Source of the DNA: a virus
Virus record (IMG/VR): IMGVR_UViG_3300010885_067901
Location: 1-20,690 of that record
Reading direction: 5' to 3' (one strand)
DNA length: 20,690 nt
The notes under the pieces are model-generated. The model worked only from the letters and a program-made list of their open reading frames with translations. It was not told the origin of the DNA and searched no databases. Both the position numbers and the translations under genes were made by a program. Each line of letters starts with the position of its first letter. Positions within the stretch are counted from its first letter, which is position 1. Below are positions 626 to 15,694 of the stretch, piece by piece.

Positions 626-1131
626 TCTTTACTACTATAGAGTTTATCCCACAATTTGTCAACTTCTTTTAATGCATCACCTGCAATCTCACCAATGTTT
701 TCTTCACCAGATTCTTCAATAATATCTTTCAAAGCATTAAACATGACTTCCCACTGATCTTGGAAGCAATTATAATCCTTCAAATTGATCTCTCCATACT
801 TGCATTTGACTGCTTCACAATTGATAGGGGGGCAGCAACCTGTCTCTCCGCAGCTATCGCATTTGGCGCAATAGTCGTTTTCAGAATCAATTTGGTTTTG
901 AATATCTGGGCTATAATTTGTGTTTATTTTTTCATCATTGCTAAACTCTGCAATGATTTCTTGGTGAATAAAATAACAAATTTCAGTGGTGCCAGGAATT
1001 CTGAAACCATATACTGTTTCTTCGTCCATAATGTCTGTTCGACCTGTGCAAATACCTTCCCCTTCATATTTGTTATAGTCGTATGGACCTTGGCAGTAGA
1101 TTGTATATTTTTTATCTTTGATTGGAATCAT
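622..1131 (-). CDS. Unknown phage protein with a central cysteine cluster, 169 aa
   Basis: The middle of the protein holds seven cysteines in 23 residues (C88, C91, C94, C99, C100, C105, C110), spaced C-x2-C-x2-C-x4-CC-x4-C-x4-C. This suggests a metal (Zn or Fe-S) site or a disulfide knot. The flanks are acidic: a beta-rich N-terminal half and a C-terminal half (residues 120-169) likely helical and rich in Glu and Lys. There is no signal peptide, so cytoplasmic metal binding is more likely than disulfides. It is the first minus-strand gene after the homing endonuclease and has its own promoter at 1156-1185. I cannot assign a function. Confidence 0.75.
   Translation of the reverse strand: MIPIKDKKYTIYCQGPYDYNKYEGEGICTGRTDIMDEETVYGFRIPGTTEICYFIHQEIIAEFSNDEKINTNYSPDIQNQIDSENDYCAKCDSCGETGCCPPINCEAVKCKYGEINLKDYNCFQDQWEVMFNALKDIIEESGEENIGEIAGDALKEVDKLWDKLYSSKE
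634..662 (-). promoter_or_regulatory. Sigma70-type promoter, near-leaderless, for the 93-aa gene
   Basis: TTGACA at 662-657, a 17-bp spacer and TATAGT at 639-634. The ATG at 625 is 8 nt after the -10 box, so the expected start of transcription is 0-2 nt from the ATG. The whole promoter lies inside the 3' end of the upstream coding region. Confidence 0.75.
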
Positions 1132-1155
1132 ATTATTGTTTAATTTAGTATTGCT

Positions 1156-1185
1156 ATACTATCGTCTATTTTAGAAAAATGTCAA
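1156..1185 (-). promoter_or_regulatory. Sigma70-type promoter with inverted repeat over the -10 box
   Basis: TTGACA at 1185-1180, an 18-bp spacer and TAGTAT at 1161-1156. The ATG at 1131 follows 24 nt later, so this mRNA has a leader of about 17 nt with no Shine-Dalgarno sequence. TAGTAT (1146-1151) and ATACTA (1156-1161) form a 6-bp inverted repeat with a 4-nt centre, whose right arm is the -10 box. This could be an operator. Confidence 0.65.
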
Positions 1186-1228
1186 ATTTTTTAGAAAATT
1201 TATATTTTCAGTGTAAATAAAATTGTAT

Positions 1229-2203
1229 ATGTCCAAACTTACCAAATCTGATGAACAATCAATAATTAATAATTATTGTAAAAAATTAATGACCACAACT
1301 GAAATACAAAAAAATTTTCAAATATCTCCTAATACAATTTATAAAATATTAAAAAATAATAATATCACCTATAAAGGAAATAATTTACCTGAACACACTC
1401 AAAAGAAAATTTGCGAATCATATCAATCTGGTCAATCTGTTAAAGATATAATGAAAAATATGGAGTTAGGAAGGAGTTCTGTTTTAAAATATTTAAAAAA
1501 ATTTAAGATAAACGTAATCAATAAAGGGGTATTTGAGAGGAAATATTCTATAAATGAAAATATTTTTACCTCTATAGATTCCTATGAAAAAGCTCAGTTT
1601 TTAGGATTGATTTATGCCGATGGTTCTTTATCTAAAAAAAATAAAAATATTTCATTAAGATTAAGAGAAGATGATATTGACTACTTAAATCAATGGAATA
1701 CAGATCTTTTAAAAACTGAACGTCCAATCTCTTTTGTACAAAGAGAAAGTATGATAAGCCCTATTTCGAAAAAAGAATATAAAAGCCCTTTTCGAATGGC
1801 TATTTTAGATATTTCTTGTAAAAAAATTTATGAAGATGCTCTTGCATTGGGACTGAAACCTAATAAAAGTAAAGAAGATTTGAGAATGCCCCAAATTGAA
1901 GATCAGTTTAAATTATCATTCATTTTAGGGCTATTTGAAGGGGATGGTTGTGTCACTTTTTGTCAAAAAAGCAGGTATTTTCAAATAGCGTGCCAAGAAA
2001 ATATGGCTTTAGATGTTCAAGAATATTTAAAATCTATCGGGATTTTCTCTATTGTTTATAAAAGACATTCTATTTATATCTTACAAATTGCAAGATGGGA
2101 GGATTTAAAGAAACTTTATTCTTTATTGTATAAAGATGCGTCTATTTTCTTAAAAAGAAAAAAAGAGAAATTTGAACAGTTACTTAATAGTAGAAAAACC
2201 TAA
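1229..2203 (+). CDS. Free-standing LAGLIDADG homing endonuclease with N-terminal HTH domains, 324 aa
   Basis: Two LAGLIDADG helices are visible: LGLIYADG near residues 125-132 and LGLFEGDG near 233-240. The Asp of each ADG/GDG is a catalytic metal ligand in this family. A single chain with two motifs acts as a pseudo-dimer and cuts a long asymmetric site. The N-terminal 95 residues look like two helix-turn-helix units (about 22-45 and 68-92), probably for extra DNA contact. I chose the ATG at 1229; a TTG two codons upstream is less likely. The gene is on the opposite strand to its neighbours, is very A-rich and is not inside an intron or intein that I can see. Its last 24 bp overlap the end of the convergent gene at 2180-2764, and both ends look intact. 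Confidence 0.9.
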   Translation: MSKLTKSDEQSIINNYCKKLMTTTEIQKNFQISPNTIYKILKNNNITYKGNNLPEHTQKKICESYQSGQSVKDIMKNMELGRSSVLKYLKKFKINVINKGVFERKYSINENIFTSIDSYEKAQFLGLIYADGSLSKKNKNISLRLREDDIDYLNQWNTDLLKTERPISFVQRESMISPISKKEYKSPFRMAILDISCKKIYEDALALGLKPNKSKEDLRMPQIEDQFKLSFILGLFEGDGCVTFCQKSRYFQIACQENMALDVQEYLKSIGIFSIVYKRHSIYILQIARWEDLKKLYSLLYKDASIFLKRKKEKFEQLLNSRKT

Positions 2204-2764
2204 TCTCTCTGCTTCTTGAGGTGAAAGAGTAGCGTACCAACCTCCTCTAATGCATTTCACACCTAGTTCTCCTGTATTTTCACAGGTTTTACTACATAAA
2301 TATCCTGCAAAAGTAACCATTCCATCAATCTTTTTGTCTCCACCAGAGTAGTAGAATCTCAACTCGGAAAATTTTGATTTGATTTGATCAATCTTAACTG
2401 CTGGGGTATAAACTTTGTTGAATGCGACATACTTGTGAGATTGTGTTCGAAATTTTTCGACAAAGTTATAAAAAGGCTTGTTAAGTTCCCACTTGTTGTA
2501 TTTGGGAAACCATTTGATAAACTTTGTATGAAACCATGTAGGGACTTTAAAACATGCATTCCATAGATAATACTTCTTGCTTGTGATTACTCTTTTTGAT
2601 TGGTACTGACCTTTTGTGTATGATGTGATAGCTCCACACAACTCATCAATGATAGTTTCCCAACCTTCGGGAACCCACGCCCCGCATCGACATTCTTTGC
2701 CATTTTTCCCGTCATAAAATAAGTCGGGGTATTTATTGATTAAATATTGTTCAAAGTTTTCCAT
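2180..2764 (-). CDS. Conserved-type phage protein with C-terminal Cys/Gly-Gly-Trp motif, 194 aa
   Basis: The C-terminal half matches a pattern I know from many phage hypothetical proteins: an I-K-x-K-F-x-x-L-R-F-Y-Y-x-G-G-D segment, a helix, a Cys pair region (CSKTCEN) and a GGWYATL end. The paired cysteines plus a further C suggest zinc binding. The N-terminal half has C-R-C-G-A-W at residues 25-30 and several Trp residues. No function is established that I know of. The gene ends convergently with the homing endonuclease, and its 3' end appears complete, so the endonuclease inserted beside it rather than into it. No strong promoter or Shine-Dalgarno sequence is seen. Confidence 0.78.
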   Translation of the reverse strand: MENFEQYLINKYPDLFYDGKNGKECRCGAWVPEGWETIIDELCGAITSYTKGQYQSKRVITSKKYYLWNACFKVPTWFHTKFIKWFPKYNKWELNKPFYNFVEKFRTQSHKYVAFNKVYTPAVKIDQIKSKFSELRFYYSGGDKKIDGMVTFAGYLCSKTCENTGELGVKCIRGGWYATLSPQEAERLGFSTIK

Positions 2765-2784
2765 GTTATTTTTCTAGTAAAGCT

Positions 2785-3009
2785 TTAACGATGCTCGCAG
2801 TCGGTGAGCTTGTCGTTCTGTGAATGAAGCTGTGGACTTTGATGATCCCCCCACTTGCCGCACATGGCACACCAGTATTTAGTGCTCACAAATTCGCTCT
2901 CTGGCACGTCTGTAATGCTCACATCATTAACTTGAACATATTTCTTACCTTTTTTCTGGTACAAGGCGCGGTTATTTTGTTTGTCGTATATAGAGTTCAT
3001 TGCGTTCAT
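2785..3009 (-). CDS. Small zinc-finger-like phage protein, 74 aa
   Basis: The C-terminal third carries C-A-M-C-G (residues 47-51), two His at about 56 and 62, and a terminal C-E-H-R, which is a possible Zn site. The N-terminal part is basic. I do not recognise a family. A promoter with a 16-bp spacer ends 7 nt before the ATG, which argues for this start. The second Met (residue 4) is a possible alternative. Confidence 0.68.
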   Translation of the reverse strand: MNAMNSIYDKQNNRALYQKKGKKYVQVNDVSITDVPESEFVSTKYWCAMCGKWGDHQSPQLHSQNDKLTDCEHR

Positions 3010-3016
3010 GAATTAA

Positions 3017-3044
3017 ACTATACTTTGTATTTTAAAGGAGTCAA
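3017..3044 (-). promoter_or_regulatory. Sigma70-type promoter, near-leaderless, for the 74-aa gene
   Basis: TTGACT at 3044-3039 (one mismatch), a 16-bp spacer and TATAGT at 3022-3017. The ATG at 3009 is 7 nt further on. It fills the 36-bp gap between two genes, and no Shine-Dalgarno sequence is present. Confidence 0.72.
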
Positions 3045-3045
3045 G

Positions 3046-3609
3046 TTAAAGTTTAAATGATAACTTTTGAATTTGAGATCCTATTAATAGAAAGATTTTG
3101 CTTATTTTATATAAAATATTTCCTAATTTTCTCTGGCATTTTCCGCGAATAGTTTTACTAAAAGCGATTTGTTTTTTAATTTTTTTAGCGATCTTTTCTT
3201 CTCTTTCTAGTCTAGGAGCAGAGTCTTCTTCCTCATATTTAAACAAAGATATTTCATCGACTTTACCATTAATAAAAACAATTTTTAAATGAATCGAAAC
3301 ATCTAAAGATTCTGTTTGTAAATAGTCGTAACATATAATAGTTGTTGTGATGTCGTAAGGAATAGTCTCTGTAGAGATTATCTTCATGTATCCTTTTAAG
3401 AAATGATTTTCATCGCTTACCCATTCGCAATTGTTCTTGTTATACGTTAAGCTATCGTTTTCAATGCTGTAAGTGGCTAAAGCTTGATCAAAGTCTTTAG
3501 TTTGCAAAGATATTTCTTCGCCCTCGACTAGACTTAAATACTTATTTATTTTTTTATCAATTCCTAATAGTCTAGATTTAGAAACGATAATACTATCGAA
3601 CATGCCCAT
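3046..3609 (-). CDS. Unknown 'MGMFD' phage protein, 187 aa
   Basis: The N-terminus M-G-M-F-D-S-I-I-V followed by G-E-E-I-S-L-Q-T-K is a start I know from many small phage and plasmid hypothetical proteins, so I place the start at 3609 rather than at an in-frame Met 18 codons upstream that lies inside the preceding gene. The first 130 residues look beta-rich. The C-terminal 55 residues are strongly basic, with a hydrophobic stretch (ILYKISKIFLLIGS) that may be an amphipathic or membrane-contacting helix. It lies 5 nt after the preceding gene and probably shares its transcript from the 3878-3905 promoter. Function unknown. Confidence 0.7.
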   Translation of the reverse strand: MGMFDSIIVSKSRLLGIDKKINKYLSLVEGEEISLQTKDFDQALATYSIENDSLTYNKNNCEWVSDENHFLKGYMKIISTETIPYDITTTIICYDYLQTESLDVSIHLKIVFINGKVDEISLFKYEEEDSAPRLEREEKIAKKIKKQIAFSKTIRGKCQRKLGNILYKISKIFLLIGSQIQKLSFKL

Positions 3610-3614
3610 TTTAT

Positions 3615-3872
3615 TTAAATTTCCCAAGTTGTGTTTGAAGATGTATGGCCGCACTGCTCGCAAATATCGCGAGCAAAATCTATTTCGTCATACTGAAATA
3701 ATTTGATTAAATCAGTAACAAATAAACTACCTTCGCTGATATGATCTTGTACTTTAATCAATAAATATTGAAGAAAATTATCTGTTTCGGTTTTATTCAT
3801 TTCTCGCAAATCTTTTCCATCAACTGTCCAAGAATCGTCCATACATGTTGAATGTTGAATTATTTTTTTCAT
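3615..3872 (-). CDS. Unknown small phage protein, 85 aa
   Basis: A small acidic protein with a C-terminal C-E-Q-C-G motif (one Cys pair) and no other recognisable feature. A TTG 11 codons upstream would make it longer, but that TTG is the start of the -35 box TTGACA of a consensus-like promoter whose -10 ends 5 nt before the ATG at 3872. The ATG is therefore the better start, and the message would be leaderless. It is followed after 5 nt by the MGMFD gene. Confidence 0.68.
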   Translation of the reverse strand: MKKIIQHSTCMDDSWTVDGKDLREMNKTETDNFLQYLLIKVQDHISEGSLFVTDLIKLFQYDEIDFARDICEQCGHTSSNTTWEI

Positions 3873-3877
3873 TTCGG

Positions 3878-3905
3878 AATATATATTTGTTTCTTTATTT
3901 GTCAA
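3878..3905 (-). promoter_or_regulatory. Sigma70-type promoter, predicted leaderless
   Basis: TTGACA at 3905-3900, a 16-bp spacer and TATATT at 3883-3878, then 5 nt to the ATG at 3872. The -35 box lies in the last codons before the stop of the oxygenase gene. The expected start of transcription falls on the AUG itself. Confidence 0.78.
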
Positions 3906-4716
3906 GGGCTGGTTGGTAAATCTTTTCGCGGAACCATTTAGTCAAAACAAATTTCTCTCCCTCTTCTACTGGCATTCCCCAATGCATAGATTCCTGAATG
4001 TTTTGGCCGTCCTTTGTATCTTGCCACAAAATCATTTTGCCCATTTCAGGCTTTGATTCGTAATCTATTTTGGTGAATTTAGTGTGTCCTCCTTTGGGAG
4101 TATCGTTTAAATAAACCATTGCTGTCCAAGTGCGATTTCCTTTAGTGGCTATTTCTTTTGTTTGAAACTCAGAGTTGGGAAACAGTGTGTCAAAATGAGG
4201 TTTAAATTGCTCGCCTTCTTTGTAGTATTGACCTTGAATTTGTTCTGTGAATTTTTCGGGAACGTTAATCAAACTAAAGATTCTATCCTCTACTAAATTA
4301 ACAATATCATATTTGTTTCTGTATAAATTAGTGGTCGAGCTAGTGCGAAAATCAGAGAGAGTATTGCCTCCTGTTTGATAGTCAATAACAGAAGACTTTG
4401 TGCAATTAGCGCGAATCACTTCAATAATTTTGACGCACTCTTCCTCATTAAAGATGTTTTTGATTTCAAAAATATTTAGTTTATCAGAGAGTCTCTTCGC
4501 TGGAAATCTGGTATTAGAGAGGATCTTTTCTACGTCTAATTCTGGAGCGTTGTTTTGAACTTCAAAAATATCTGGGATTCCAAATTCGTTGATAATTAAT
4601 TCTTTTTTAAATCCTTTGTCTAAAAGAATTCCTGCGATCTCCCTTTTGGGAGAGCCTCTTTTCACATTGTCCCAAATCCAAAATTTCCAACTGTCATCAA
4701 AAGAATTAAAATTCAT
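3895..4716 (-). CDS. Prolyl-4-hydroxylase-type 2-oxoglutarate/Fe(II) oxygenase, 273 aa
   Basis: The double-stranded beta-helix oxygenase domain fills the C-terminal half. The iron ligands are visible as H174-x-D176 (in PHFD) and H245 (in SMHWG), and K255 (in GEKFVLTKW) is placed to bind the 2-oxoglutarate carboxylate. The order YKEGEQ, PHFD, RTWTAMVYLND, GGHTKF, H, G-x-K is the P4Hc pattern, so proline hydroxylation is the expected chemistry, though phage relatives have few known substrates. The first 60 residues form a separate small helical domain. I start at the ATG at 4716; the longer frame upstream runs into the divergent gene. The two genes leave a 34-bp AT-rich gap with TATA-like sequence for both promoters. 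A possible substrate is the Pro-rich protein at 20453. Confidence 0.88.
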   Translation of the reverse strand: MNFNSFDDSWKFWIWDNVKRGSPKREIAGILLDKGFKKELIINEFGIPDIFEVQNNAPELDVEKILSNTRFPAKRLSDKLNIFEIKNIFNEEECVKIIEVIRANCTKSSVIDYQTGGNTLSDFRTSSTTNLYRNKYDIVNLVEDRIFSLINVPEKFTEQIQGQYYKEGEQFKPHFDTLFPNSEFQTKEIATKGNRTWTAMVYLNDTPKGGHTKFTKIDYESKPEMGKMILWQDTKDGQNIQESMHWGMPVEEGEKFVLTKWFREKIYQPALDK

Positions 4717-4750
4717 ACTATATATACGTTTGAATCGTGTAATTTCTAGT

Positions 4751-5419
4751 ATGAAGTTTGATTCTAAGGCTAGACAAATATTCAAAAAATTGCCTAATGA
4801 CGTAAAAAACTATTTTTATGAAGTTGATGAAAAATGTAAAAATCATCAAATAAATTTTAGATTAAGCGGCGGAAAAAGCCTTAACGCTAACGGCTCTAGA
4901 TGTGGAGGATGGTTTGACGATTCAACTAAAGAGTTGGCTATAGCTTTAAATATGCCTTTAAAATGGAGTTTGTCCATTCTTCTGCATGAAGAATCTCATT
5001 TAGACCAGTGGCTAGATCAAAATTCTGTCTGGTATAATAGCAAAATTAATAACAGCTTTCAGCGTTTTTTTTCTTGGTTAGCTAAAGATTCTGAAATTCG
5101 CTACCCCTTGAAAGAAGCAAAAAATATTATTATCCTTGAAGCTGATTGTGAAAGAAGAACATTGCGAAAGATTCGCAAACGTTGGTCGCATATTATAGAT
5201 TGCGAAACTTATTCTAGGTCTGCTAATGCTTATATGTTTTCTTACTTGTGGATGGCGAAAAGTAGAAAATGGATAGGTTGCTGTGTAAAACAACAGTATT
5301 TCTTGAAGCATTTCTCCGCTAAAATGCAAAAACAATATAATTTCTTGCCAGAAAAGTATCTTAAATTATTCTTGACTCAAGACAACAAAAAACCCCTCTC
5401 CAAACGGAGAGGGGTTTAG
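4751..5419 (+). CDS. Phage HExxH putative metallopeptidase, 222 aa
   Basis: The motif LLHEESHLDQW (H79, E80, H83) is a zincin-type site, and an acidic segment ILEADCE (E130, E134) downstream could supply the third ligand. The order CGGWFDD, HExSHxDQW, LEADCE, A-N-A-Y and R-K-W recalls a phage family often annotated as metallopeptidase domain protein, whose substrate I do not know. The start is the ATG at 4751; earlier in-frame codons overlap the divergent oxygenase gene. It is the only plus-strand gene besides the homing endonuclease in the first 14 kb. Its last codons form the left and right arms of a strong terminator hairpin. Confidence 0.78.
   Translation: MKFDSKARQIFKKLPNDVKNYFYEVDEKCKNHQINFRLSGGKSLNANGSRCGGWFDDSTKELAIALNMPLKWSLSILLHEESHLDQWLDQNSVWYNSKINNSFQRFFSWLAKDSEIRYPLKEAKNIIILEADCERRTLRKIRKRWSHIIDCETYSRSANAYMFSYLWMAKSRKWIGCCVKQQYFLKHFSAKMQKQYNFLPEKYLKLFLTQDNKKPLSKRRGV
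5381..5417. terminator. Bidirectional rho-independent terminator inside a coding end
   Basis: A 12-bp stem (5390-5401 with 5406-5417), mostly C-C-C-C-T-C-T-C-C, closes a 4-nt loop (AAAC). Read on the minus strand it is followed by TTTTTT then GTTGTC, a good U-tract, so it should stop the minus-strand operon that ends with the holin-like gene. Read on the plus strand it has only three T before the TAG stop at 5417-5419, so termination there would be weaker. It codes the last residues of the plus-strand gene. Confidence 0.88.
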
Positions 5420-5431
5420 TGGGCCTGCGGG

Positions 5432-5617
5432 TTATTTGTCTTTTGCTTTGCCGATATTTAAGGCGAGCCAATCAATTACCATGTAAGCTTTCTTAATAAA
5501 GCCGTCATCCTTTGGGGTAGGAGTTAAAGCGGCGATAGCGGAACATGTTGCCACGATAGAGGTAACAATATTAAAAATGTCGATTTTGTGAATGAGAATC
5601 CAAGTGATAGCGTTCAT
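5432..5617 (-). CDS. Holin-like small membrane protein, 61 aa
   Basis: One hydrophobic segment (about residues 12-31, FNIVTSIVATCSAIAAL) is followed by T-P-T-P-K-D-D and a C-terminal W-L-A-L-N-I-G-K-A-K segment. This layout is common in small phage proteins annotated as holins or holin-like, which form lesions in the inner membrane at lysis. It is the last gene before the terminator at 5381-5417 and sits 8 nt after the metallophosphoesterase gene. No endolysin is adjacent, so a lysis role rests on the family resemblance only. Confidence 0.62.
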   Translation of the reverse strand: MNAITWILIHKIDIFNIVTSIVATCSAIAALTPTPKDDGFIKKAYMVIDWLALNIGKAKDK

Positions 5618-5625
5618 GCTTTTAT

Positions 5626-6333
5626 TTACACATAAAACGGCATATACGACTCATCAATATTTAAACATTTAAATTCTGTATTTTCGTAATTAGTTGTAGA
5701 ACTCTGATGAAAGTGTCCGTAAATCCAATTTTTTGGCTTGGTTCTTTCATATAAATAATCAAGTTGCTGACTCTCTTCAATGAGATCATTTTTCAAATCA
5801 GGGTCTTGATCGCACCAATATTTGATGTTATCAAATCCTTTGAAAGCTCCACAGACTCCTGGGCGAGTATGAGTTACAACTAAATCGTACTGACGATTTT
5901 CATATGGAAATTCGTGTTCAAGTTTGAGATTAAAGGGTTCATCGCTCCACCATGATTTACCTTCTTTGCGAAAGCGACGATCAACGCTTACTGCACCACC
6001 AACAAGTAAGATGCTTTTACCAAGCAGTTCTAATTCGCTGTAATCAGCAAGTAGAGTAATATTAGCAATCCCAAAAGGATTGTTAGTTTCTGCAAAGTAG
6101 GATGGGTCATCATGGTTGCCGCGAATTACGTAAAGATGGCAGTTGGTTTTAGTGAGAATCTTACTAAGAATAGTTAATTCGGTCTTGTAGTAATTTGGCT
6201 TGTAAAAACCTAATCCAAAATCTCCAACTTGAATAATATAGGCATCAGAAATGTTCTTTCTGATTTCATTTTTAAAAGGCCCAAACTCTGCGTGAATGTC
6301 TCCGATTAATATTATTTTATTTTTTTCCTCCAT
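5626..6333 (-). CDS. Calcineurin-like metallophosphoesterase, 235 aa
   Basis: The metallophosphoesterase signature is complete: G-D-I-H (residues 11-14), G-D-F-G (37-40), G-N-H-D-D (72-76), T-H near 154 and G-H-F-H (206-209). These residues hold two metal ions and hydrolyse phosphomono- or phosphodiesters. The length is typical for the small phage and bacterial members of the family, and the substrate (nucleotide, RNA end or protein) cannot be told from sequence. It follows a 58-codon gene after 3 nt and precedes the holin-like gene in the same operon. No Shine-Dalgarno sequence is visible. Confidence 0.9.
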   Translation of the reverse strand: MEEKNKIILIGDIHAEFGPFKNEIRKNISDAYIIQVGDFGLGFYKPNYYKTELTILSKILTKTNCHLYVIRGNHDDPSYFAETNNPFGIANITLLADYSELELLGKSILLVGGAVSVDRRFRKEGKSWWSDEPFNLKLEHEFPYENRQYDLVVTHTRPGVCGAFKGFDNIKYWCDQDPDLKNDLIEESQQLDYLYERTKPKNWIYGHFHQSSTTNYENTEFKCLNIDESYMPFYV

Positions 6334-6336
6334 AAC

Positions 6337-6513
6337 TTATTCAAGAGTATCGAAAACAAAATTTTCGCGGATTAACTCCATAATAGCATCATTTATTTTT
6401 TCTTTGATAACAATACTTGTTGGATTATCAACATGTTTATGTGCTCGGTTAAAACCTAGAGAGATTCCGTTATCAATGCATTCGGTAATTATTTTATAGT
6501 AATTTGCTTTCAT
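6337..6513 (-). CDS. Small conserved-type phage protein, 58 aa
   Basis: A minus-strand frame begins at an ATG at 6513-6511 (MKANYYKIIT) and ends with a TAA at 6339-6337. It has a C-I-D-N-G-I-S-L-G-F-N-R-A-H-K-H segment and a C-terminal D-A-I-M-E-L-I segment. Small phage proteins with this E-C-I-x-x-G-I-x-x-G-x-x-R-A-x-K-H pattern are familiar to me but have no known function. It fits the operon exactly, 7 nt after the upstream stop and 3 nt before the metallophosphoesterase ATG. It is likely helical and cytoplasmic. Confidence 0.75.
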   Translation of the reverse strand: MKANYYKIITECIDNGISLGFNRAHKHVDNPTSIVIKEKINDAIMELIRENFVFDTLE

Positions 6514-6520
6514 AATATTC

Positions 6521-6925
6521 TTATTTTAATTTGCTTTGAATGATAGCATCAGTTCCTTTAGCCCACGCTTCATTAATCTCATCAATGGTGGTCCAGCATT
6601 CGTTTGGTAACGCATCTGGTGGCCCAATGATTTTCATGCACGCCTCTAGAGCTTCAAGCAACTCGGTGTTGTTGGTTTTGACTTTATTGAGTTCAGCTAC
6701 TAATTTTTCCACTTTCGGCGCTCGATCTTTTAAATCTCCGCGAGAACGAATGATGCTTTTGATTTTTACTTGATTGTCATGGGCAGCTTTCCATTGATCG
6801 CGCTCTTTATTAGCTTCTGCCAACTCGCGTTCAAGTTGTCGGGCAAAGTCGGGCGCAATGCAGAGATCGCCTTCTTTGCATGTCATGCTTTCGTTTGCGT
6901 CTGTGCGTGGTGTTGGTATTTTCAT
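6521..6925 (-). CDS. Phage coiled-coil protein with 'PTPRTDA' start, 134 aa
   Basis: The N-terminus M-K-I-P-T-P-R-T-D-A is a common opening of phage small proteins, followed by D-F-A-R-Q-L-E-R-E-L-A-E-A and a heptad-like helical region (about residues 30-95) that suggests a coiled coil. I start at this Met (6925), 4 nt after the upstream stop; an in-frame Met 11 codons earlier would overlap the upstream gene. The C-terminal part contains C-W-T-T-I-D-E-I and is probably also helical. The family has no known function that I am aware of. Confidence 0.75.
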   Translation of the reverse strand: MKIPTPRTDANESMTCKEGDLCIAPDFARQLERELAEANKERDQWKAAHDNQVKIKSIIRSRGDLKDRAPKVEKLVAELNKVKTNNTELLEALEACMKIIGPPDALPNECWTTIDEINEAWAKGTDAIIQSKLK

Positions 6926-6929
6926 AATT

Positions 6930-7514
6930 TTACGTCCAAAAATATTCGCGATAATCAATCATTTTTTTTAAGATGTTAGAGTCTGTTTCTGAGATAAGAA
7001 TATTGATTTTATTCATTTCTCCGTAGAGTTCATTATAAGATTTGCCTTTTAAATGATTTGGAAGGGGATAGGGAGGATAAAGAATATCTGCTTGAGCTTC
7101 ACAATTTGGTCTGCCAACAGTAATCCAATGAGCGGAAGAGTCAAGCCAATTCTTAAATTCGCGATGTTTTTCTGTCCCATCCCAATCAACGTAAGATTGA
7201 TCGGCTTCTTTCTTGAAGCTAACAATCATTGCGAAATTAACATCCACAATCAAACTGCTAATATCGGCCCATGTTTTAGGGATGGCTTTGCGAATTTCTT
7301 GGTGCTTAGGTTTAAAAAAACATTTCACTTTGTAAAAGAAATCGTCCCACTTCCATCCCCAACTGCGAAAATAATAATAAACATCTTCTCGTAGCCAATA
7401 TTGAAAAGGGTATTTTTCTTTCGTTTCTTGTTTCCACGATGCCCAATCATCTAAAGACAAGCTATGTGGATTTTCATAAATGAATGAAGCTTTTTGTTTG
7501 ATCGGTGTTTCCAT
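6930..7514 (-). CDS. Unknown Trp-rich phage protein, 194 aa
   Basis: A Trp- and Tyr-rich soluble protein (about nine Trp), with R-S-W-G-W-K-W-D-D near residues 50-58, I-P-K-T-W-A-D-I near 78-85 and V-D-W-D-G-T near 109. Phage proteins with the I-P-x-T-W-x-D and N-F motifs are familiar as hypothetical proteins, but I know no function. The ATG at 7514 is directly preceded by the best promoter in the window (-10 box TATAAT ending 5 nt before the ATG), so the message should be leaderless. It is the first gene of the transcript running through to the holin-like gene. Confidence 0.75.
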   Translation of the reverse strand: METPIKQKASFIYENPHSLSLDDWASWKQETKEKYPFQYWLREDVYYYFRSWGWKWDDFFYKVKCFFKPKHQEIRKAIPKTWADISSLIVDVNFAMIVSFKKEADQSYVDWDGTEKHREFKNWLDSSAHWITVGRPNCEAQADILYPPYPLPNHLKGKSYNELYGEMNKINILISETDSNILKKMIDYREYFWT

Positions 7515-7519
7515 AACTG

Positions 7520-7547
7520 ATTATACCATTGATTTTTCTTTTGTCAA
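7520..7547 (-). promoter_or_regulatory. Perfect-consensus sigma70 promoter, predicted leaderless
   Basis: TTGACA at 7547-7542, a 16-bp spacer and TATAAT at 7525-7520, then 5 nt (CAGTT) to the ATG at 7514. The promoter lies over the last codons and stop of the UVDE gene. Both hexamers match the consensus exactly. Confidence 0.88.
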
Positions 7548-8432
7548 ATCTCTGATCTTAAAAATAGCCTGACATTTATTTTTTAACTCTATATCATAGA
7601 ACACTTCTCTACCATAATCCTCTGGAGTAGCGGTTGGCATGTCAGCGTGTTTGCGAGTACCGTCAATGCCTTCGCTGTAGTGAAACAATGGCGTTGTAGG
7701 CCAAGTGTCATAAGCAGCGTCAAAAGCCTCTCTGGGAGTCAAGGAATCGCCAAGAATGCTGTGATGCAAGCTATCGTAGGTGATTGGAATGCCGCGAGTA
7801 TTGTGAAAGTATTTGATCAAGTTCTTGATGCCCCAAATACCTCTGGCGTTGTCATTGTTTTCTAGAACTAAACGTTTGCGAATATTGTCTGGCAGTTCGT
7901 CATATACTGACAAGACTTTATCAGCGATTGCTTGAGTATTTCCTTCCTGACGGACATGGATGTTGAGCGGAGAACGATAGTCTTCTGGCAAGTCTAAGAG
8001 ACTAAAGATTTCAGCGTGCTGTTTGAGGTCTGCAATGCTGTTGTCGATGCACTCTTTCTTGTCAGATGACAAGGTGATGTATTCGCTAGGGTGGGAGGAT
8101 AAACGAATAGGCTTTTCTGCCAAAGTCTTTTTGATAGCATCGCACGTTTCTTTGATGCTGGAAAAGTTTGGCAAGTCAGAGATTGATAGCCGCAAATCTT
8201 TGTGCGTTAAGATTGGAGCAAGAGAAGATGAGACTCTGTAGCCTTGGATATTGTTGTTTTGGCAAAACTTAATTGTTTGATGAGTCATCTTGAAGTTGTG
8301 CAAGATGCGCTGAGAAAGCTCGTTGATAGCTTGGTCAAAAGGCAGTTTGGCGAATTGAGTATATGTCATCGAACGGAAGTTGTGTCCGTTGTCAGATAGT
8401 GTCTTGGAGATACAGCAAAGGGCTAAATTCAT
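7521..8432 (-). CDS. uvsE: UV damage endonuclease, UVDE/Uve1 type, 303 aa
   Basis: This TIM-barrel endonuclease nicks DNA 5' of UV photoproducts and starts excision repair without UvrABC. The UVDE pattern is visible: GYRVSSSLAP (64-73), LSSHPSEYITL (111-121), NIHV with H159, LVLENND with E191, TYDSLHH (218-224), HYSEG (251-255) and D-I-E-L-K-N-K near 280. The metal-binding His, Glu and Asp residues of the family are present and the length is normal. I start at the ATG at 8432, giving the usual first beta strand (MNLALCCIS). A TTG 11 codons upstream is part of a -35 box. The gene has its own promoter and probably protects or repairs phage DNA. UVDE is uncommon in phages. Confidence 0.9.
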   Translation of the reverse strand: MNLALCCISKTLSDNGHNFRSMTYTQFAKLPFDQAINELSQRILHNFKMTHQTIKFCQNNNIQGYRVSSSLAPILTHKDLRLSISDLPNFSSIKETCDAIKKTLAEKPIRLSSHPSEYITLSSDKKECIDNSIADLKQHAEIFSLLDLPEDYRSPLNIHVRQEGNTQAIADKVLSVYDELPDNIRKRLVLENNDNARGIWGIKNLIKYFHNTRGIPITYDSLHHSILGDSLTPREAFDAAYDTWPTTPLFHYSEGIDGTRKHADMPTATPEDYGREVFYDIELKNKCQAIFKIRDLTKEKSMV

Positions 8433-8437
8433 ACTAG

Positions 8438-8465
8438 AATCTAGCCCATCTATGCTGAATGTCAA
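8438..8465 (-). promoter_or_regulatory. Sigma70-type promoter, predicted leaderless, for UVDE gene
   Basis: TTGACA at 8465-8460, a 16-bp spacer and TAGATT at 8443-8438, then 5 nt to the ATG at 8432. It occupies the 33-bp gap after the kinase-like gene. Spacing from -10 box to ATG is identical to the promoters at 7520 and 3878. Confidence 0.75.
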
Positions 8466-8909
8466 TTACGATCTCAATATTTTTTCAGGATCACGTTCTC
8501 GCGGTCCTTTTTCAACGCTCGTCCAACTTTCAAAATCAATTAAAAATAATTTGCCACTATCAGATTCTACAACATTTTTCCAACGAATATCATTGTGATG
8601 AATTCCATACTTATTCGCTAGTAAGTCATTCATTCTTTTGATTTCCGCCTTGAACTTGTAACGATCTTTTGGCGCATATTTGATGTTTAATGATTCACCA
8701 ACATACTTGGTGATGATTAACTTTTCTTCTGGCTTAGTGCTTATAAGCGGAGCTATAAAATCGCAATCGGATAAACTAAAATACGCGAACGCTTCTTTCT
8801 TAAATTTATTAACTGTTTTTAAGTATTTGTATACAAGTAGTTCATTGTTGATTTCATGTAGTTCTAGCCTCTCAGTCGAAACTCCTTTTTTAAATTCTTT
8901 AATCAACAT
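8466..8909 (-). CDS. Minimal protein-kinase-fold protein, 147 aa
   Basis: A catalytic loop HHNDIRWKN (residues 104-112; D107 and N112) and a metal-binding D-F-E (125-127) match the kinase fold in the form seen in small bacterial and lipopolysaccharide-kinase-like proteins. A possible hinge (KLIITKYVGESL) lies at 63-74, and a candidate Lys-Glu pair may be K28 and E39. At 147 residues it is far shorter than a normal kinase: the N-lobe is reduced, with no glycine-rich loop, and the C-lobe ends soon after D-F-E. It may phosphorylate a small molecule or sugar, or have lost activity. It is the last gene of the operon from 11416. A TATATT lies 6 nt before the ATG but lacks a good -35 box. Confidence 0.7.
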   Translation of the reverse strand: MLIKEFKKGVSTERLELHEINNELLVYKYLKTVNKFKKEAFAYFSLSDCDFIAPLISTKPEEKLIITKYVGESLNIKYAPKDRYKFKAEIKRMNDLLANKYGIHHNDIRWKNVVESDSGKLFLIDFESWTSVEKGPRERDPEKILRS

Positions 8910-8912
8910 AAA

Positions 8913-9008
8913 TTAAATATATCGTCCTATTGCTTCAATGAAGCGCAAAATCTTTTCTAAAAATAAATTGATCATTAATTCTTTGATTTGTTTGAGGCGA
9001 TTAAACAT
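8913..9008 (-). CDS. Probable 31-aa peptide gene between sigma factor and kinase-like gene
   Basis: An ATG at 9008-9006 overlaps the last codons of the sigma factor gene, and the frame runs 31 codons to a TAA at 8915-8913, 3 nt before the next ATG. It thus fills exactly what would otherwise be a 91-nt gap. The peptide is basic at its start (MFNRLKQIK) and then has an amphipathic or membrane-active helix (INLFLEKILRFIEAIGRYI). An AAGGA lies 2 nt upstream of the ATG, too close to be ideal, so reinitiation after the sigma factor is more likely. No homolog is known to me; short frames like this can be chance. Confidence 0.42.
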   Translation of the reverse strand: MFNRLKQIKELMINLFLEKILRFIEAIGRYI

Positions 9009-9585
9009 ATTCCTTGGATAGTCTTTCTATTTCTGATTGAAGTTTTTTGGTCATTTTATGTTTTGCGACATAAAAAGCACCGACTGTTACTTTATATTTT
9101 TCAATAATCTCTTCTTTGCTTTTCTCCTTTAAGAAAATATCGCAAAAAATATCATACTCTTTGCCTGATCTAGTGGTCTTCAAATTGTTTAAAGCAATTT
9201 TAATTAGTTTTTGCTTATATTTGTGGTCAGACTTATTCTCCACGGTGCAGTCTTCGCTTCCTTGACTCTCCATTAATTCGTCATCACCAGAGATGAAATG
9301 CTTAGTTTGAGTCTTATTTCTGCGGATAATGTCGATCATTCTCCATTTTGCAAACTTTTGAATCCAAGCGTGAAGACATCCCTTTGATGAATCAAATTTA
9401 TTATTTTTAAATTGATTAGCCATTGCTAAGAAAATATCTTGAATTGTATCTTCGGCATCTTGATTGTTAAGATTGTATGAGTGGGTCAATGAACGAAAAT
9501 AACCATAATAATGAGTATAAAATTCGTTCCAATCTTTAGCATTTGTCCAATCTTTAAGATCAATTTCGGATGGCTGTTCAATCAT
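9001..9585 (-). CDS. Phage-encoded ECF-type RNA polymerase sigma factor, 194 aa
   Basis: Region 2 is clear: Y-Y-G-Y-F-R-S-L (about 26-33), the D-A-E-D-T-I-Q-D-I-F core-binding segment (43-52), then G-C-L-H-A-W-I-Q-K-F-A-K-W-R-M-I-D-I-I-R-R (69-89), which recognises the -10 element. A linker rich in polar residues (90-125) leads to region 4, where a helix-turn-helix (about 155-185, K-Y-K-V-T-V-G-A-F-Y-V-A-K-H-K) recognises the -35 element. The W-R-x-I-D and A-K-H patterns resemble ECF factors I associate with Verrucomicrobiota. It probably directs host RNA polymerase to phage promoters different from the TTGACA type, perhaps the late tail genes; this is inference. No anti-sigma factor is evident, apart from the odd 31-codon frame next door. 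Confidence 0.82.
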   Translation of the reverse strand: MIEQPSEIDLKDWTNAKDWNEFYTHYYGYFRSLTHSYNLNNQDAEDTIQDIFLAMANQFKNNKFDSSKGCLHAWIQKFAKWRMIDIIRRNKTQTKHFISGDDELMESQGSEDCTVENKSDHKYKQKLIKIALNNLKTTRSGKEYDIFCDIFLKEKSKEEIIEKYKVTVGAFYVAKHKMTKKLQSEIERLSKEYV

Positions 9586-9586
9586 A

Positions 9587-9772
9587 TTAAAATGGAGCTT
9601 GATCTTCGTCGATTATTTCGAACGGTGGGGTTTCTATCTTGAAAGTATTTCTCAATGCTGTCGTAACAGCATCTATTGCTCTGCATGTTTGATAATCATC
9701 GCTATAACCAAACATACGAGATTCATGTTCTAAGTTGGATATCAGTTCTGTAATTTGAGCGTTTATATTCAT
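9587..9772 (-). CDS. Unknown small phage protein, 61 aa
   Basis: A small acidic helical protein with S-R-M-F-G-Y-S-D-D-Y-Q-T-C-R-A-I in the middle and an acidic tail. No family recognised. Its ATG overlaps the stop of thyX (ATGA) and its own stop is 1 nt before the sigma factor ATG, so it is certainly part of the operon and likely translated by coupling. Confidence 0.68.
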   Translation of the reverse strand: MNINAQITELISNLEHESRMFGYSDDYQTCRAIDAVTTALRNTFKIETPPFEIIDEDQAPF

Positions 9773-10479
9773 AGGCCAAAAGCTTCAAGGGTATATTTGA
9801 AGGGGTTGCCTTCGATATTCTTTACAAGAGTAAGCATATAGTCTGCAATGTCGCGAATTTCTTTCTGAGCTTTTGGTTTGTTACGAAGACTCAAGAAGTG
9901 ATAAAAAGACCTCCAGTTAAACATAACGTCAGCTTGAATCTGAGAGTTGTATGTTTTGAAGAAACGGGCACTTTCTTTGGCGCGTTTACGGCCAAGAATA
10001 GGTTCAAGGTCTTTGAGGCATTGGTGGTAGAGATCATTGCCTAATTTTGTGTATTCTTCCAATACACTGCTCCATTCAATCTCATTTGGCTCGTATAAGC
10101 CTCTATCACTATCAAACACTGCTAGATAAGAAGAATTTGTAATTGTAATATCTTTATCTTTCCAATCATCAGGAATGTAATACTTATCCTCCTTCAGTTC
10201 TTTGTATCTCGCACTCTCACCATTAATAGAACATCCAATTCGGTGTTTTAGGAGATGGATGTGGCTAGCGATGTCACAATCCACAAGAAAATGAAGACTG
10301 CTTTTTTCAAAGGGCGTATGATGTCCAGCATCTGCAAGCATTTTTAATAGTTTAGGAATCCGCTCTCGCTTCTCCTCTGTAATGTCTCGACTAGTGCTTG
10401 TCCAAGCAGAACACGCATGAATTTCGTCGCTTCCGTAAAATCCGATTAATTCTACCTTATTAGTGTTAATTTCGCTCAT
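9769..10479 (-). CDS. thyX: Flavin-dependent thymidylate synthase ThyX, 236 aa
   Basis: ThyX makes dTMP from dUMP using FAD and methylene-tetrahydrofolate. The signature is present as K-H-R-I-G-C-S-I-N-G-E-S-A-R-Y (residues 78-92), a variant of RHRxxSxNxxSxRY with Lys for the first Arg. H53-H54-T-P-F-E and the C-terminal S-F-Y-H-F-L-S-L-R segment also match, and the length is normal for the family. It overlaps the preceding lipoprotein gene (ATGA) and the following 61-aa gene (ATGA), so it is expressed as part of the operon from 11416. Phages carry it to boost thymidine nucleotides, which suits a very AT-rich genome. Confidence 0.95.
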   Translation of the reverse strand: MSEINTNKVELIGFYGSDEIHACSAWTSTSRDITEEKRERIPKLLKMLADAGHHTPFEKSSLHFLVDCDIASHIHLLKHRIGCSINGESARYKELKEDKYYIPDDWKDKDITITNSSYLAVFDSDRGLYEPNEIEWSSVLEEYTKLGNDLYHQCLKDLEPILGRKRAKESARFFKTYNSQIQADVMFNWRSFYHFLSLRNKPKAQKEIRDIADYMLTLVKNIEGNPFKYTLEAFGL

Positions 10480-10718
10480 GGTTGAGGAATGAATCTAGAA
10501 ATTTTTTGCTCTAGTTGTTCTACTGTTTTTTCTGAATGCCAAATCTCCACAACATCACCAGAAATATAATCTCCGATTGTTGTTTTAACCGCTGTATTCG
10601 CAGGTAAGAACAAAGCTTCTGGCTGTTCTAGTCTTCGTTGAGAGACTGATTTTGAATCAATTTTATTAGTGTTGCAGCAAGAAGCGGCGAACATTGTTAA
10701 AAGTAAGAGTTTTTTCAT
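10476..10718 (-). CDS. Small lipoprotein, candidate outer-membrane spanin, 80 aa
   Basis: A signal peptide (MKKLLLLTMFAAS) ends at a lipobox-like A-A-S-C, giving a mature lipoprotein of about 66 residues. The mature part has A-L-F-L-P-A-N-T-A-V and V-V-E-I-W-H-S-E, then a short helix. Phage lipoproteins of this layout next to a coiled-coil protein are often Rz1-like outer spanins. It begins within the last codons of the upstream coiled-coil gene (4-nt ATGA overlap), as expected for a two-gene spanin. A Cys at +2 is unusual. It could instead be a host-surface lipoprotein with another role. Confidence 0.6.
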   Translation of the reverse strand: MKKLLLLTMFAASCCNTNKIDSKSVSQRRLEQPEALFLPANTAVKTTIGDYISGDVVEIWHSEKTVEQLEQKISRFIPQP

Positions 10719-10963
10719 AAGTTATTTTGCTTGAGGAACAGATTTAATTTTTCCTTTTCTTCGATAATTTCGTCCATTAATCTCTTTGCTTGAGCTTGTT
10801 CATCTGATTTAGCGATTGAACGAAGTTCTTCTCTTTTCTCATTGAGCTTGTTAACTCTAGAGGAATGCTTTTCTAAAATATCGTAAAAATAAGATTTATT
10901 CTTAAGTTTAAGAAATTGAACGCCAAGCTCAAGCAGTAATTTTACTGTTGCTAATAAAGGCAT
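10715..10963 (-). CDS. Coiled-coil protein, candidate inner-membrane spanin, 82 aa
   Basis: An N-terminal hydrophobic stretch (about residues 2-20, PLLATVKLLLELGVQFL, with one Lys and one Glu) is followed by a long charged helix (about 30-80) rich in Lys, Glu and Leu and predicted to form a coiled coil. This is the shape of an Rz-like inner spanin, which links to an outer lipoprotein and fuses the membranes at lysis. The charged residues in the hydrophobic part weaken the case for a true membrane anchor. It overlaps the lipoprotein gene downstream by 4 nt. A purine-rich GAAGAAG precedes its ATG. Confidence 0.55.
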   Translation of the reverse strand: MPLLATVKLLLELGVQFLKLKNKSYFYDILEKHSSRVNKLNEKREELRSIAKSDEQAQAKRLMDEIIEEKEKLNLFLKQNNL

Positions 10964-10965
10964 TT

Positions 10966-11163
10966 TTACTTCTTCGTAGATTCAAAAATAATCTTTTCCT
11001 CTTTGTCCACACCTGCTTCGCAGACATAGCCTCCGATATGTTTTGCACAATCAAGTGCCCATGAATAGGCATCTTGAAAACACATATCATAAGAAGCTTG
11101 ATGATCGCCCTTGTGATTATAAACGCTATACCAACTAACACCAGATTTACCTTTTGTTTTCAT
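10966..11163 (-). CDS. Unknown small phage protein, 65 aa
   Basis: A small protein with W-Y-S-V-Y-N near the start and D-A-Y-S-W-A-L-D-C-A-K-H-I-G-G-Y-V in the middle. No known family. It lies 2 nt before the coiled-coil gene and 10 nt after the 80-aa gene in one operon. A longer overlapping frame on the same strand (10929-11141) is out of register and discounted. Confidence 0.66.
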   Translation of the reverse strand: MKTKGKSGVSWYSVYNHKGDHQASYDMCFQDAYSWALDCAKHIGGYVCEAGVDKEEKIIFESTKK

Positions 11164-11173
11164 ATTTAATGAT

Positions 11174-11416
11174 TTAATGATTTTGAGAGACTTTGATTAG
11201 GGTTTCGTGAATTAAATGACGGGTTTCGCGGTCAACTACTCGACCATCAACTTGAGGAAGTTCGTTTACAACCTCGTCAAAGTCAAGACCAAAAGCGGAA
11301 CATAGTGATTTTACTTTACGAAAGACTCCAATTTCCTTGTATTTAAGGATTGCCCAGCACAAATCAATTTGCTCTGGGGTTGCTTCTCCAATTGCATTGG
11401 CAAGTTGCTTGCTCAT
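11174..11416 (-). CDS. Unknown small phage protein, 80 aa, first gene of the ThyX/sigma operon
   Basis: A small helical protein (A-T-P-E-Q-I-D-L-C-W-A-I-L-K-Y; then F-G-L-D-F-D-E-V-V-N-E-L-P) that I do not recognise. A perfect-consensus promoter lies 39 nt upstream of its ATG, so unlike most genes here it has a real 5' leader of about 33 nt, AT-rich, without a Shine-Dalgarno sequence that I can see. The transcript would continue through the lytic, thyX, sigma and kinase-like genes to about 8466. Confidence 0.68.
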   Translation of the reverse strand: MSKQLANAIGEATPEQIDLCWAILKYKEIGVFRKVKSLCSAFGLDFDEVVNELPQVDGRVVDRETRHLIHETLIKVSQNH

Positions 11417-11455
11417 GTATTTATTTTAATATTATTTGAGATTTATCTTCTATCT

Positions 11456-11483
11456 ATTATAGCATATTAACAATGCTTGTCAA
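11456..11483 (-). promoter_or_regulatory. Perfect-consensus sigma70 promoter with 5' leader
   Basis: TTGACA at 11483-11478, a 16-bp spacer and TATAAT at 11461-11456. It overlaps the stop codon and last codons of the glycosyltransferase-like gene. It is the only strong promoter besides that at 1156 where the ATG is far away (39 nt), leaving room for a leader of about 33 nt, so it may be regulated differently. Confidence 0.85.
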
Positions 11484-12371
11484 GACGTTTCTCTTCTCGA
11501 CAAGAGCTTTTTCTTTCCACTGCTGGAGATAATCCTGATAGAAAGAAGTATTTTCGGTTTTCTGAATCAATTCCTCTTCGGAATTAACAAAGAAATGATC
11601 AGGAACATTATAACCAGACAACTCGACGGTATTTTTACAGTTACCATCAAAAAGAGGAAGTACGTTATAATTAAGAGACTCGTAAAATCTGTTAGCCAAG
11701 CAATTATAATTGTTATGATTGATTTCGTCTTCGATATACAAAGATGTTTTAAAGTCAAGCAAGCCATCTTTTGACCAATTGATTCGATCAATAAAAGGAC
11801 CGTTAACGCTAGCGTTCGAAAACTTTTCCCTATTCTTCTTGTGAGTAGATACTGTAACATAGCCTTTTAAATAATTCTGAAAAGACAAGACACGATCTTT
11901 GCGGAAAGATCCGTAATACACGCAACCTTTCTTTTCTTTTGTCGTCAAGATAGGGTCGAACACTAAACTATTTAAGTTAACGAAGTTCCACTTATCCACA
12001 TACTTCTCGACAATTTTGGAGATGTTTGCGCTATGATTAGCAATGACTTGGTAGCGGCGACCAGCTTTCGCAGCCATCCATAGGATGCGCGGCTCACCAA
12101 GATTATACTCGTTAGTGATATGAAAGAGTTCGGCATTTGGACTTTGTTCTAGCCATTTGTAATCCACATATGAATAGTGGCTAGCATGATTGAAAATGAT
12201 TTTGTCATAGTTTGGCTCAATAACATCATTGACTGATGGGTAGCTCCAAATCAAATCAACTTGGTGGCCCAAAGTGATTAGGTGGTCTTTAATCTGCTTT
12301 GCATTTAACCAGTGCAAGTTTTGCGGTTCTTTCAAGGAACCTTTGTGTGAATCAATTAGTAGGATTTTCAT
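11457..12371 (-). CDS. Glycosyltransferase-like protein, 304 aa
   Basis: The N-terminus MKILLIDSH (a first beta strand) and a G-H-Q-V-D-L-I-W segment are typical of a GT-B Rossmann domain. Near the C-terminus N-R-F-Y-E-S-L-N-Y-N-V-L-P-L-F-D resembles the nucleotide-sugar binding segment (E plus aliphatic strand) of GT4-like enzymes. I start at the ATG at 12371; the longer frame upstream is inside the 86-aa gene. It overlaps that gene by 20 nt. Acceptor and donor cannot be told. Its neighbours include a sulfotransferase, so sugar addition followed by sulfation of a phage or host component is plausible, as is modification of phage protein or DNA. Confidence 0.68.
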   Translation of the reverse strand: MKILLIDSHKGSLKEPQNLHWLNAKQIKDHLITLGHQVDLIWSYPSVNDVIEPNYDKIIFNHASHYSYVDYKWLEQSPNAELFHITNEYNLGEPRILWMAAKAGRRYQVIANHSANISKIVEKYVDKWNFVNLNSLVFDPILTTKEKKGCVYYGSFRKDRVLSFQNYLKGYVTVSTHKKNREKFSNASVNGPFIDRINWSKDGLLDFKTSLYIEDEINHNNYNCLANRFYESLNYNVLPLFDGNCKNTVELSGYNVPDHFFVNSEEELIQKTENTSFYQDYLQQWKEKALVEKRNVLTSIVNML

Positions 12372-12612
12372 ATTGTGAGAATTCAATGGCGATTTTGCCG
12401 AGACTGTTATCAATAGCGCAGTATCCTTCAAACACAAGTACTTTTTCGAAAACTCTTGTTTTAGTGATTTCAAAAAGTAAATCTTCTTTTTCTGGAATTC
12501 TCAAAATGTGCATAGACGGGTCGATTGACTTTAGCTCGCAATTTTCGAATATTTTATCCATCCACTCTTGGTGAATGTCGTTTGCTCCAACAACTTTAAT
12601 ATTTCCTGTCAT
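12352..12612 (-). CDS. Unknown small phage protein, 86 aa
   Basis: A small acidic protein, predicted alpha/beta, with W-M-D-K-I-F-E-N near the start and T-R-V-F-E-K-V-L-V-F-E-G in the middle. I do not recognise it. It has its own promoter with the -10 box ending 5 nt before the ATG, and its end overlaps the glycosyltransferase-like gene by 20 nt, which suggests coupled production. Confidence 0.66.
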   Translation of the reverse strand: MTGNIKVVGANDIHQEWMDKIFENCELKSIDPSMHILRIPEKEDLLFEITKTRVFEKVLVFEGYCAIDNSLGKIAIEFSQYENPTN

Positions 12613-12617
12613 GCTAT

Positions 12618-12646
12618 ATATTAATACTTGTATTTGAACATGTCAA
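12618..12646 (-). promoter_or_regulatory. Sigma70-type promoter, predicted leaderless
   Basis: TTGACA at 12646-12641, a 17-bp spacer and TAATAT at 12623-12618, then 5 nt (ATAGC) to the ATG at 12612. It overlaps the last codons and stop of the sulfotransferase gene. A shifted TTAATA with a 16-bp spacer is an alternative -10 box. Confidence 0.75.
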
Positions 12647-15318: not shown

Positions 15319-15694
15319 TTTTAAAGACATTCTTAAATTTTTAAAAGATCATAGTGATCGTTATTTTAATATTGAATGTTGCGCTTTTGTTGGTTTAAGA
15401 AATGGGGTTTATATATCTCAAATTTTAGCTAATCGCTCTCCAGAGCCTAATTCTTTTTTTTGCGTTGATCCTTTGGATTTTTTAAAATTCAAAAGCGAAA
15501 ATGAATTATTGTTTATCTTCCACTCTCATCCTCATACAAGCGCTGATTTTTCCGAGATGGATAAGTCTAATGCTGAAGCTTGTTGCTTGCTGTCTCTTGT
15601 TTACTCTGTGGTTGATAATAAATTTGCGCTTTACGAGCCTCAAAATCATGAAATAGATGTAAATATATTAAACAAGGTAAAAGGTTATTTATGA
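15290..15694 (+). CDS. K: Tail assembly protein K-like, JAMM metalloprotease domain only, 134 aa
   Basis: The JAMM zinc motif is complete: H78-S-H80-x10-D91 (H-S-H-P-H-T-S-A-D-F-S-E-M-D) with E29 as the likely general acid/base in the upstream E-C-C segment. Lambda gpK has this Mov34/JAMM half plus an NlpC/P60 peptidase half; this protein ends right after the JAMM domain, so the NlpC/P60 part is missing or encoded elsewhere. The start lies 29 bp inside the L gene, and no Shine-Dalgarno sequence is seen, so coupling to L is likely. It overlaps the next gene by 4 nt (ATGA). Confidence 0.85.
   Translation: MELHIKVENDFKDILKFLKDHSDRYFNIECCAFVGLRNGVYISQILANRSPEPNSFFCVDPLDFLKFKSENELLFIFHSHPHTSADFSEMDKSNAEACCLLSLVYSVVDNKFALYEPQNHEIDVNILNKVKGYL

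Follow-up and report, generated by a model that had tools for sequence, protein, structure and literature searches.

Promoters at the start codons of a phage contig

In a virus record from IMG/VR (20,690 bases, 34% G+C; the whole of this stretch is referred to as the window), several minus-strand genes start only a few nucleotides downstream of a promoter, raising the question of whether their mRNAs begin at the start codon itself. The explanation favoured here, with a probability of about 0.86, is that these are leaderless sigma70-type promoters, typical of a whole phage group that probably infects a leaderless-tolerant host. Minus-strand genes predominate in the left 14 kb of the window, and their products include the UV damage endonuclease UvdE (7521..8432, minus strand; PF03851, E 1.7e-38), ThyX, a 2OG-Fe(II) oxygenase, a metallophosphoesterase, a sulfotransferase-like protein, a phage sigma factor (9001..9585, minus strand; Sigma70_r2, 8.9e-8; phrog_1740, 8.8e-16) and numerous small proteins. 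The right part, on the plus strand, encodes a lambda-type tail tip (phrog_18, L-like; phrog_30; phrog_32; phrog_31, J-like). The left-hand genes are presumptively called early, from their gene content only.

Six promoters, all on the minus strand, have the -10 box ending 5 to 8 nt before an ATG (given below as -35 box, spacer, -10 box, gap and ATG position). That of uvdE is TTGACA-16-TAGATT-5-ATG8432 (8438..8465), and three others also have a gap of 5 nt: TTGACA-16-TATATT-5-ATG3872 (3878..3905; present in 3/3 orthologues), TTGACA-16-TATAAT-5-ATG7514 (7520..7547; the two hexamers match the consensus at 12/12 positions) and TTGACA-17-TAATAT-5-ATG12612 (12618..12646; in 10/12 orthologues, always at 5 nt). 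TTGACT-16-TATAGT-7-ATG3009 (3017..3044) was found in all five of five orthologues. The sixth, promoter-like site, TTGACA-17-TATAGT-8-ATG625 (634..662), is doubtful; it is the least certain of the set because it lies within a stretch coding for a conserved peptide and because the same DNA in L053 and L054 has a different gene downstream, at a greater distance, so that the match may be coincidental. Two further minus-strand promoters have longer leaders: TTGACA-16-TATAAT (11456..11483), separated from ATG 11416 by a 39-nt A-rich stretch without a Shine-Dalgarno (SD) sequence, and a TTGACA promoter (1156..1185) whose -10 box ends 24-26 nt before ATG 1131 and which is not conserved in L054/L055. 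Next to this non-conserved promoter, a plus-strand homing-endonuclease-like gene (1229-2203; phrog_4645) lies amid the minus-strand genes.

Hexamers, spacers and gaps of the six sites all agreed with the first-pass annotation of this DNA, as did the two promoters with longer leaders; TTGACA/TATAAT-like hexamers 16-18 nt apart mark the elements as sigma70-type. The same annotation had described SD sequences as mostly absent, and SD-like sequence was indeed detected at 0 of the 33 called starts in the window. Its description of promoters embedded in upstream gene ends also held, several of them overlapping upstream stop codons: promoter 7520-7547 sits in the 3' end of uvdE, the stop codon of which falls in the -10 box, and the -10 box of promoter 12618-12646 includes the TAA of the sulfotransferase gene upstream.

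Excess over chance and conservation in related phages

The strict motif followed by an ATG 4-8 nt downstream occurred six times on the minus strand of the window and not at all on the plus strand. The first-pass annotation had proposed a comparison with shuffled sequence, and in 1,000 second-order shuffles of the window the mean was 0.27, with none of the 1,000 reaching six. Loose promoter-like matches were not enriched in the window (77, against 79 in shuffles) and were therefore of no use here.

Many related phages were retrieved from among viral contigs, with J, UvdE and the proteins 11457 and 7514 as queries, and were searched with the pattern TTGACN-N15/16-TANNNT-N4/8-ATG, the reversed pattern serving as control. 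Over 23 related IMG/VR records the strict pattern greatly outnumbered the reversed control, at 21 versus 1 matches in the 148-kb record G012 and 16 versus 0 in the 51-kb record G017. At 52 of the 124 TANNNT-5/6-ATG sites in these two records, the -35 region matched TTGACA at five or more of six positions, compared with a shuffled expectation of about 2.5.

Conservation could be followed most closely for uvdE, where the conserved N terminus of the protein fixes the start codon. The related loci span about 46-95% protein identity and have differing upstream genes; 22 of 23 distinct loci carry TTGnnn-N16/17-TANNNT 5-8 nt before the ATG, the gap being 5 or 6 nt at all loci except L054, and the one remaining locus has CATCAT at that place. 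By a strict TTGAC criterion the distant uvdE phages L036 and L037 appeared to be without the feature; this was rejected, their -35 box being TTGATT or TTGTAA. Relatives of gene 7514 have kept the promoter with gaps of 4-5 nt (4 nt in L015 and L016), and close relatives of gene 11416 have kept both the promoter and the longer A-rich leader.

Probable position of the transcription start

Across G012, G017, G006 and G007, gaps between the -10 box and ATGs that open an ORF were 5 nt at 34 sites and 6 nt at 39, and no other value exceeded six sites; these counts are not all independent, because G006 and G007 have sites in common. The same peak was seen in single genomes, with 16 sites at 5 nt and 21 at 6 nt in G012, and 6 and 11, respectively, in G017. 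The base at -1 was a pyrimidine at 62 of 68 sites, compared with 366 of 661 (55%) other ORF starts (Fisher p 1.3e-9), and in G012 alone at all 37 of 37 sites; the base directly 3' of the ATG was A in 61 of 68. A pyrimidine before a purine (YR) is the usual signature of a start site, expected 6-8 nt beyond the -10 box in sigma70-type promoters. Since the pyrimidine is at -1 and the A of the ATG comes six or seven bases after the -10 box, transcription most likely starts (+1) at this A, as judged from sequence signatures. With a gap of 5 nt, the A is the sixth base downstream of the -10 box, one base less than is optimal in E. coli.

Some observations count against the leaderless reading: this short distance at a gap of 5 nt, the 4-nt gap in two relatives of gene 7514, and the two window promoters that possess leaders. 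SD-like sequence was at or near background in the relatives and the window. The 5/6-nt peak, the -1 pyrimidine, the deep conservation at uvdE and the lack of SD sequences make the leaderless reading, with mRNA starting at or next to AUG as the first-pass annotation had it, the best supported one at the level of sequence. Leaderless genes are characterised by a constant 5-7 nt between the -10 box and the start and by an absence of SD sequences, and both features were found.

Alternative explanations and proposed mechanism

A dense genome might produce a similar picture by compaction, if ordinary promoters were squeezed up to start codons with transcription starting at no fixed place, the mRNAs beginning a few nucleotides inside or before the ORF and protein being made mainly from read-through polycistronic mRNA. 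The coding density of 0.92-0.99 (simple ORF calling) and the overlap of several promoters with upstream stop codons are in line with this, but compaction predicts broad gaps, whereas 73 sites lay at 5 or 6 nt with at most six at any other gap, and it predicts neither the -1 pyrimidine nor a uvdE promoter that is conserved although the genes upstream are unrelated; we consider it improbable. Still less probable is that the repeated elements are operators or other protein-binding sites and not promoters. The inverted repeat that spans the uvdE start (see below) would suit such a role; yet that repeat is peculiar to uvdE, its sequence changing from one lineage to the next, while the constant parts of the elements are exactly the -35 and -10 hexamers with a 16/17-nt spacer, the remainder varying freely, and the elements are strand-specific and fixed relative to the ATG. 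Chance matches in AT-rich DNA, for which the lack of enrichment of loose promoter-like matches might speak, can be given hardly any weight, being refuted by the shuffles, by the reversed control in relatives and by the gap histogram.

Under the leaderless reading, the sigma70-type promoters, presumably read by host RNA polymerase, would be placed such that transcription begins at the first base of the ATG. Such mRNAs would be leaderless, and ribosomes would bind the 5'-terminal AUG without an SD sequence and translate the first gene of each unit. As many of the promoters fall within the 3' end of the gene upstream, neighbouring genes could be transcribed separately with no need for intergenic space. 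The whole phage group would be built in this manner, probably in a Verrucomicrobiota/Planctomycetota-like host tolerating leaderless messages.

Inverted repeat at the uvdE start

A terminator scan revealed an inverted repeat spanning the start codon of uvdE (8420..8447, minus strand), with its 5' arm in the promoter and its 3' arm in codons 2-5. The duplex z at this start was -2.4, and base-pairing of the promoter with codons 2-12 of uvdE had a mean z of -1.8 relative to shuffles over 18 loci, the effective number of which is lower since the loci are related. At the other leaderless starts the values were -0.3 to -0.5, and hairpins there showed no clear excess over shuffles. Several lineages had stronger pairing at uvdE than shuffles, involving three or more different registers, and several others showed none; the arms thus vary in sequence and register among phage lineages with pairing retained. 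It is possible, by analogy, that the hairpin would hide the AUG in read-through RNA only, the locally initiated transcript escaping it. Start-occluding hairpins are known for genes e, soc and 49 of phage T4, and that of gene e resembles the uvdE hairpin in having its 5' arm inside the promoter (PMC3014915). Elsewhere in the window, a strong terminator-like hairpin of 12 pairs (5390-5417) lies between the convergent genes 4751-5419 (plus strand) and 5432-5617 (minus strand).

A second motif upstream of start codons

A blind search for 7-mers in front of start codons returned TATATT and, in addition, GTGTAAA, the latter seen 11 times against 0.5 expected in G012 and 9 times against 0.3 in G006 plus the window. 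The pattern GTGTAAW-N6/7-ATG occurred 43 times, compared with 2 for the reversed pattern, in 20 records, several of which are near-copies of one another. Its gap to the ATG (window, G012, G017 and G006) peaked at 7 nt (11 sites) and 8 nt (5 sites), and the motif was frequently located upstream of structural genes. Two instances in the window are GTGTAAA-7-ATG at start 5617 of a 61-aa gene (5615..5631, minus strand), retained in front of the same gene in relatives, and GTGTAAT-7-ATG at start 4751 of a plus-strand gene (4737..4753, plus strand), the same in G001, G016 and G018. By our reading, the 61-aa gene is holin-like.

Judging from the letters and spacing, GTGTAAW may constitute a second class of leaderless promoter, and a candidate late one, for which the phage sigma factor (9001-9585) would be the natural candidate reader. 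The motif is like the T4 late promoter TATAAATA in its letters and in how far it lies from the start: the octamer TGTAAANN terminates 5-6 nt before the ATG, the same distance as that of TATAAATA from its start site. The T4 late system uses gp55, whereas the window sigma factor matches phrog_1740; T4 mRNAs also carry SD leaders, unlike the predicted GTGTAAW transcripts. A more tentative, and rather unlikely, extension combines an early class read by the host sigma factor and a late GTGTAAW class read by the phage sigma factor, both leaderless, with the uvdE hairpin silencing the start in read-through RNA. If this were true, most transcription units would avoid leaders and SD sequences, and only the leaderless uvdE transcript would be translated.

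Relation to known leaderless systems

Leaderless phage transcripts are already known. Middle and late transcripts of the Thermus phage phiYS40 are leaderless (reviewed in PMC3594737), and the window group is similar to it in being phages with much of the genome expressed, here by prediction, from leaderless mRNAs. In phiYS40, however, leaderlessness has been shown experimentally and linked to changes in IF2/IF3, whereas for the window group we infer it from sequence; the group is also unrelated to phiYS40 and uses mainly sigma70-type promoters with a consensus -35 box. For Cluster O mycobacteriophages, three predicted SigA promoters that place +1 on the start codon have been described (PMC4351075), compared with dozens in the largest relative of the window, kept across a diverse group. 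A likeness in promoter layout is offered by Akkermansia muciniphila, a member of the Verrucomicrobiota, which has -35/-10/YR promoters with transcription starting at AUG, although these are measured and belong to cellular genes, while those of the window group are predicted and belong to phage genes. Cappable-seq of this bacterium gave 10% leaderless starts, with a YR motif, compared with 0.4% in E. coli (PMC4782308).

Within the open-access library searched, no earlier account turned up of these phages, of leaderless sigma70-type promoters at the density seen in them, or of the GTGTAAW class. Outside Actinobacteria, Deinococcus-Thermus and archaea, leaderless translation is difficult to investigate. 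A phage group fixing dozens of starts at AUG would supply a clean natural set of leaderless promoters, offering strong, short promoter-start units that are open to testing. Fixed starts would also settle gene starts for annotation and suggest the translation style of the host; standard gene callers, where tuned to SD sequences or normal leaders, may put starts in the wrong place in genomes of this kind.

Host and associated gene content

A host that favours leaderless translation, as hinted at in the first-pass annotation, is the favoured reading. DUF1501 and DUF1549/DUF1553 genes are typical of Planctomycetota and Verrucomicrobiota, and are present in the relative G006 (L067:9866-12875), not in the window; DUF1501 is found as well on plasmids of Catenovulum and Haliscomenobacter, and the genes in G006 may be a host clue or auxiliary genes. 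Their presence in a relative suggests a host from Verrucomicrobiota/Planctomycetota, an assignment that is tentative and only somewhat favoured. These genes and the lambda L-K-I-J type of tail tip make an actinobacterium or Deinococcus an improbable host. SD sequences are scarce in some Verrucomicrobia (PMC10783764). tRNAs gave no host assignment, no close cultured phage was found (cultured matches being only distantly related), and ribosomal protein S21, considered as a phage translation aid, was rejected, as none was present in 20 contigs. Scanning genome contigs with the gpL tail protein yielded only one match, a 7-kb contig of a related phage within a Bacteroidota MAG, and this MAG showed no motif excess (13 versus 32 in the control).

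Among the tail genes, the gpI-like tail assembly gene (15691-16293) is single in the window and present as two diverged tandem copies in L004, L006, L009, L013 and L014. At the contig end (20440-20690), a low-complexity frame rich in proline and threonine (MPTPSPTPSPPPP...) has stalk-like counterparts in G006 and G012. In G012, an intein containing a LAGLIDADG endonuclease splits the terminase large subunit (L061:9407-12556).
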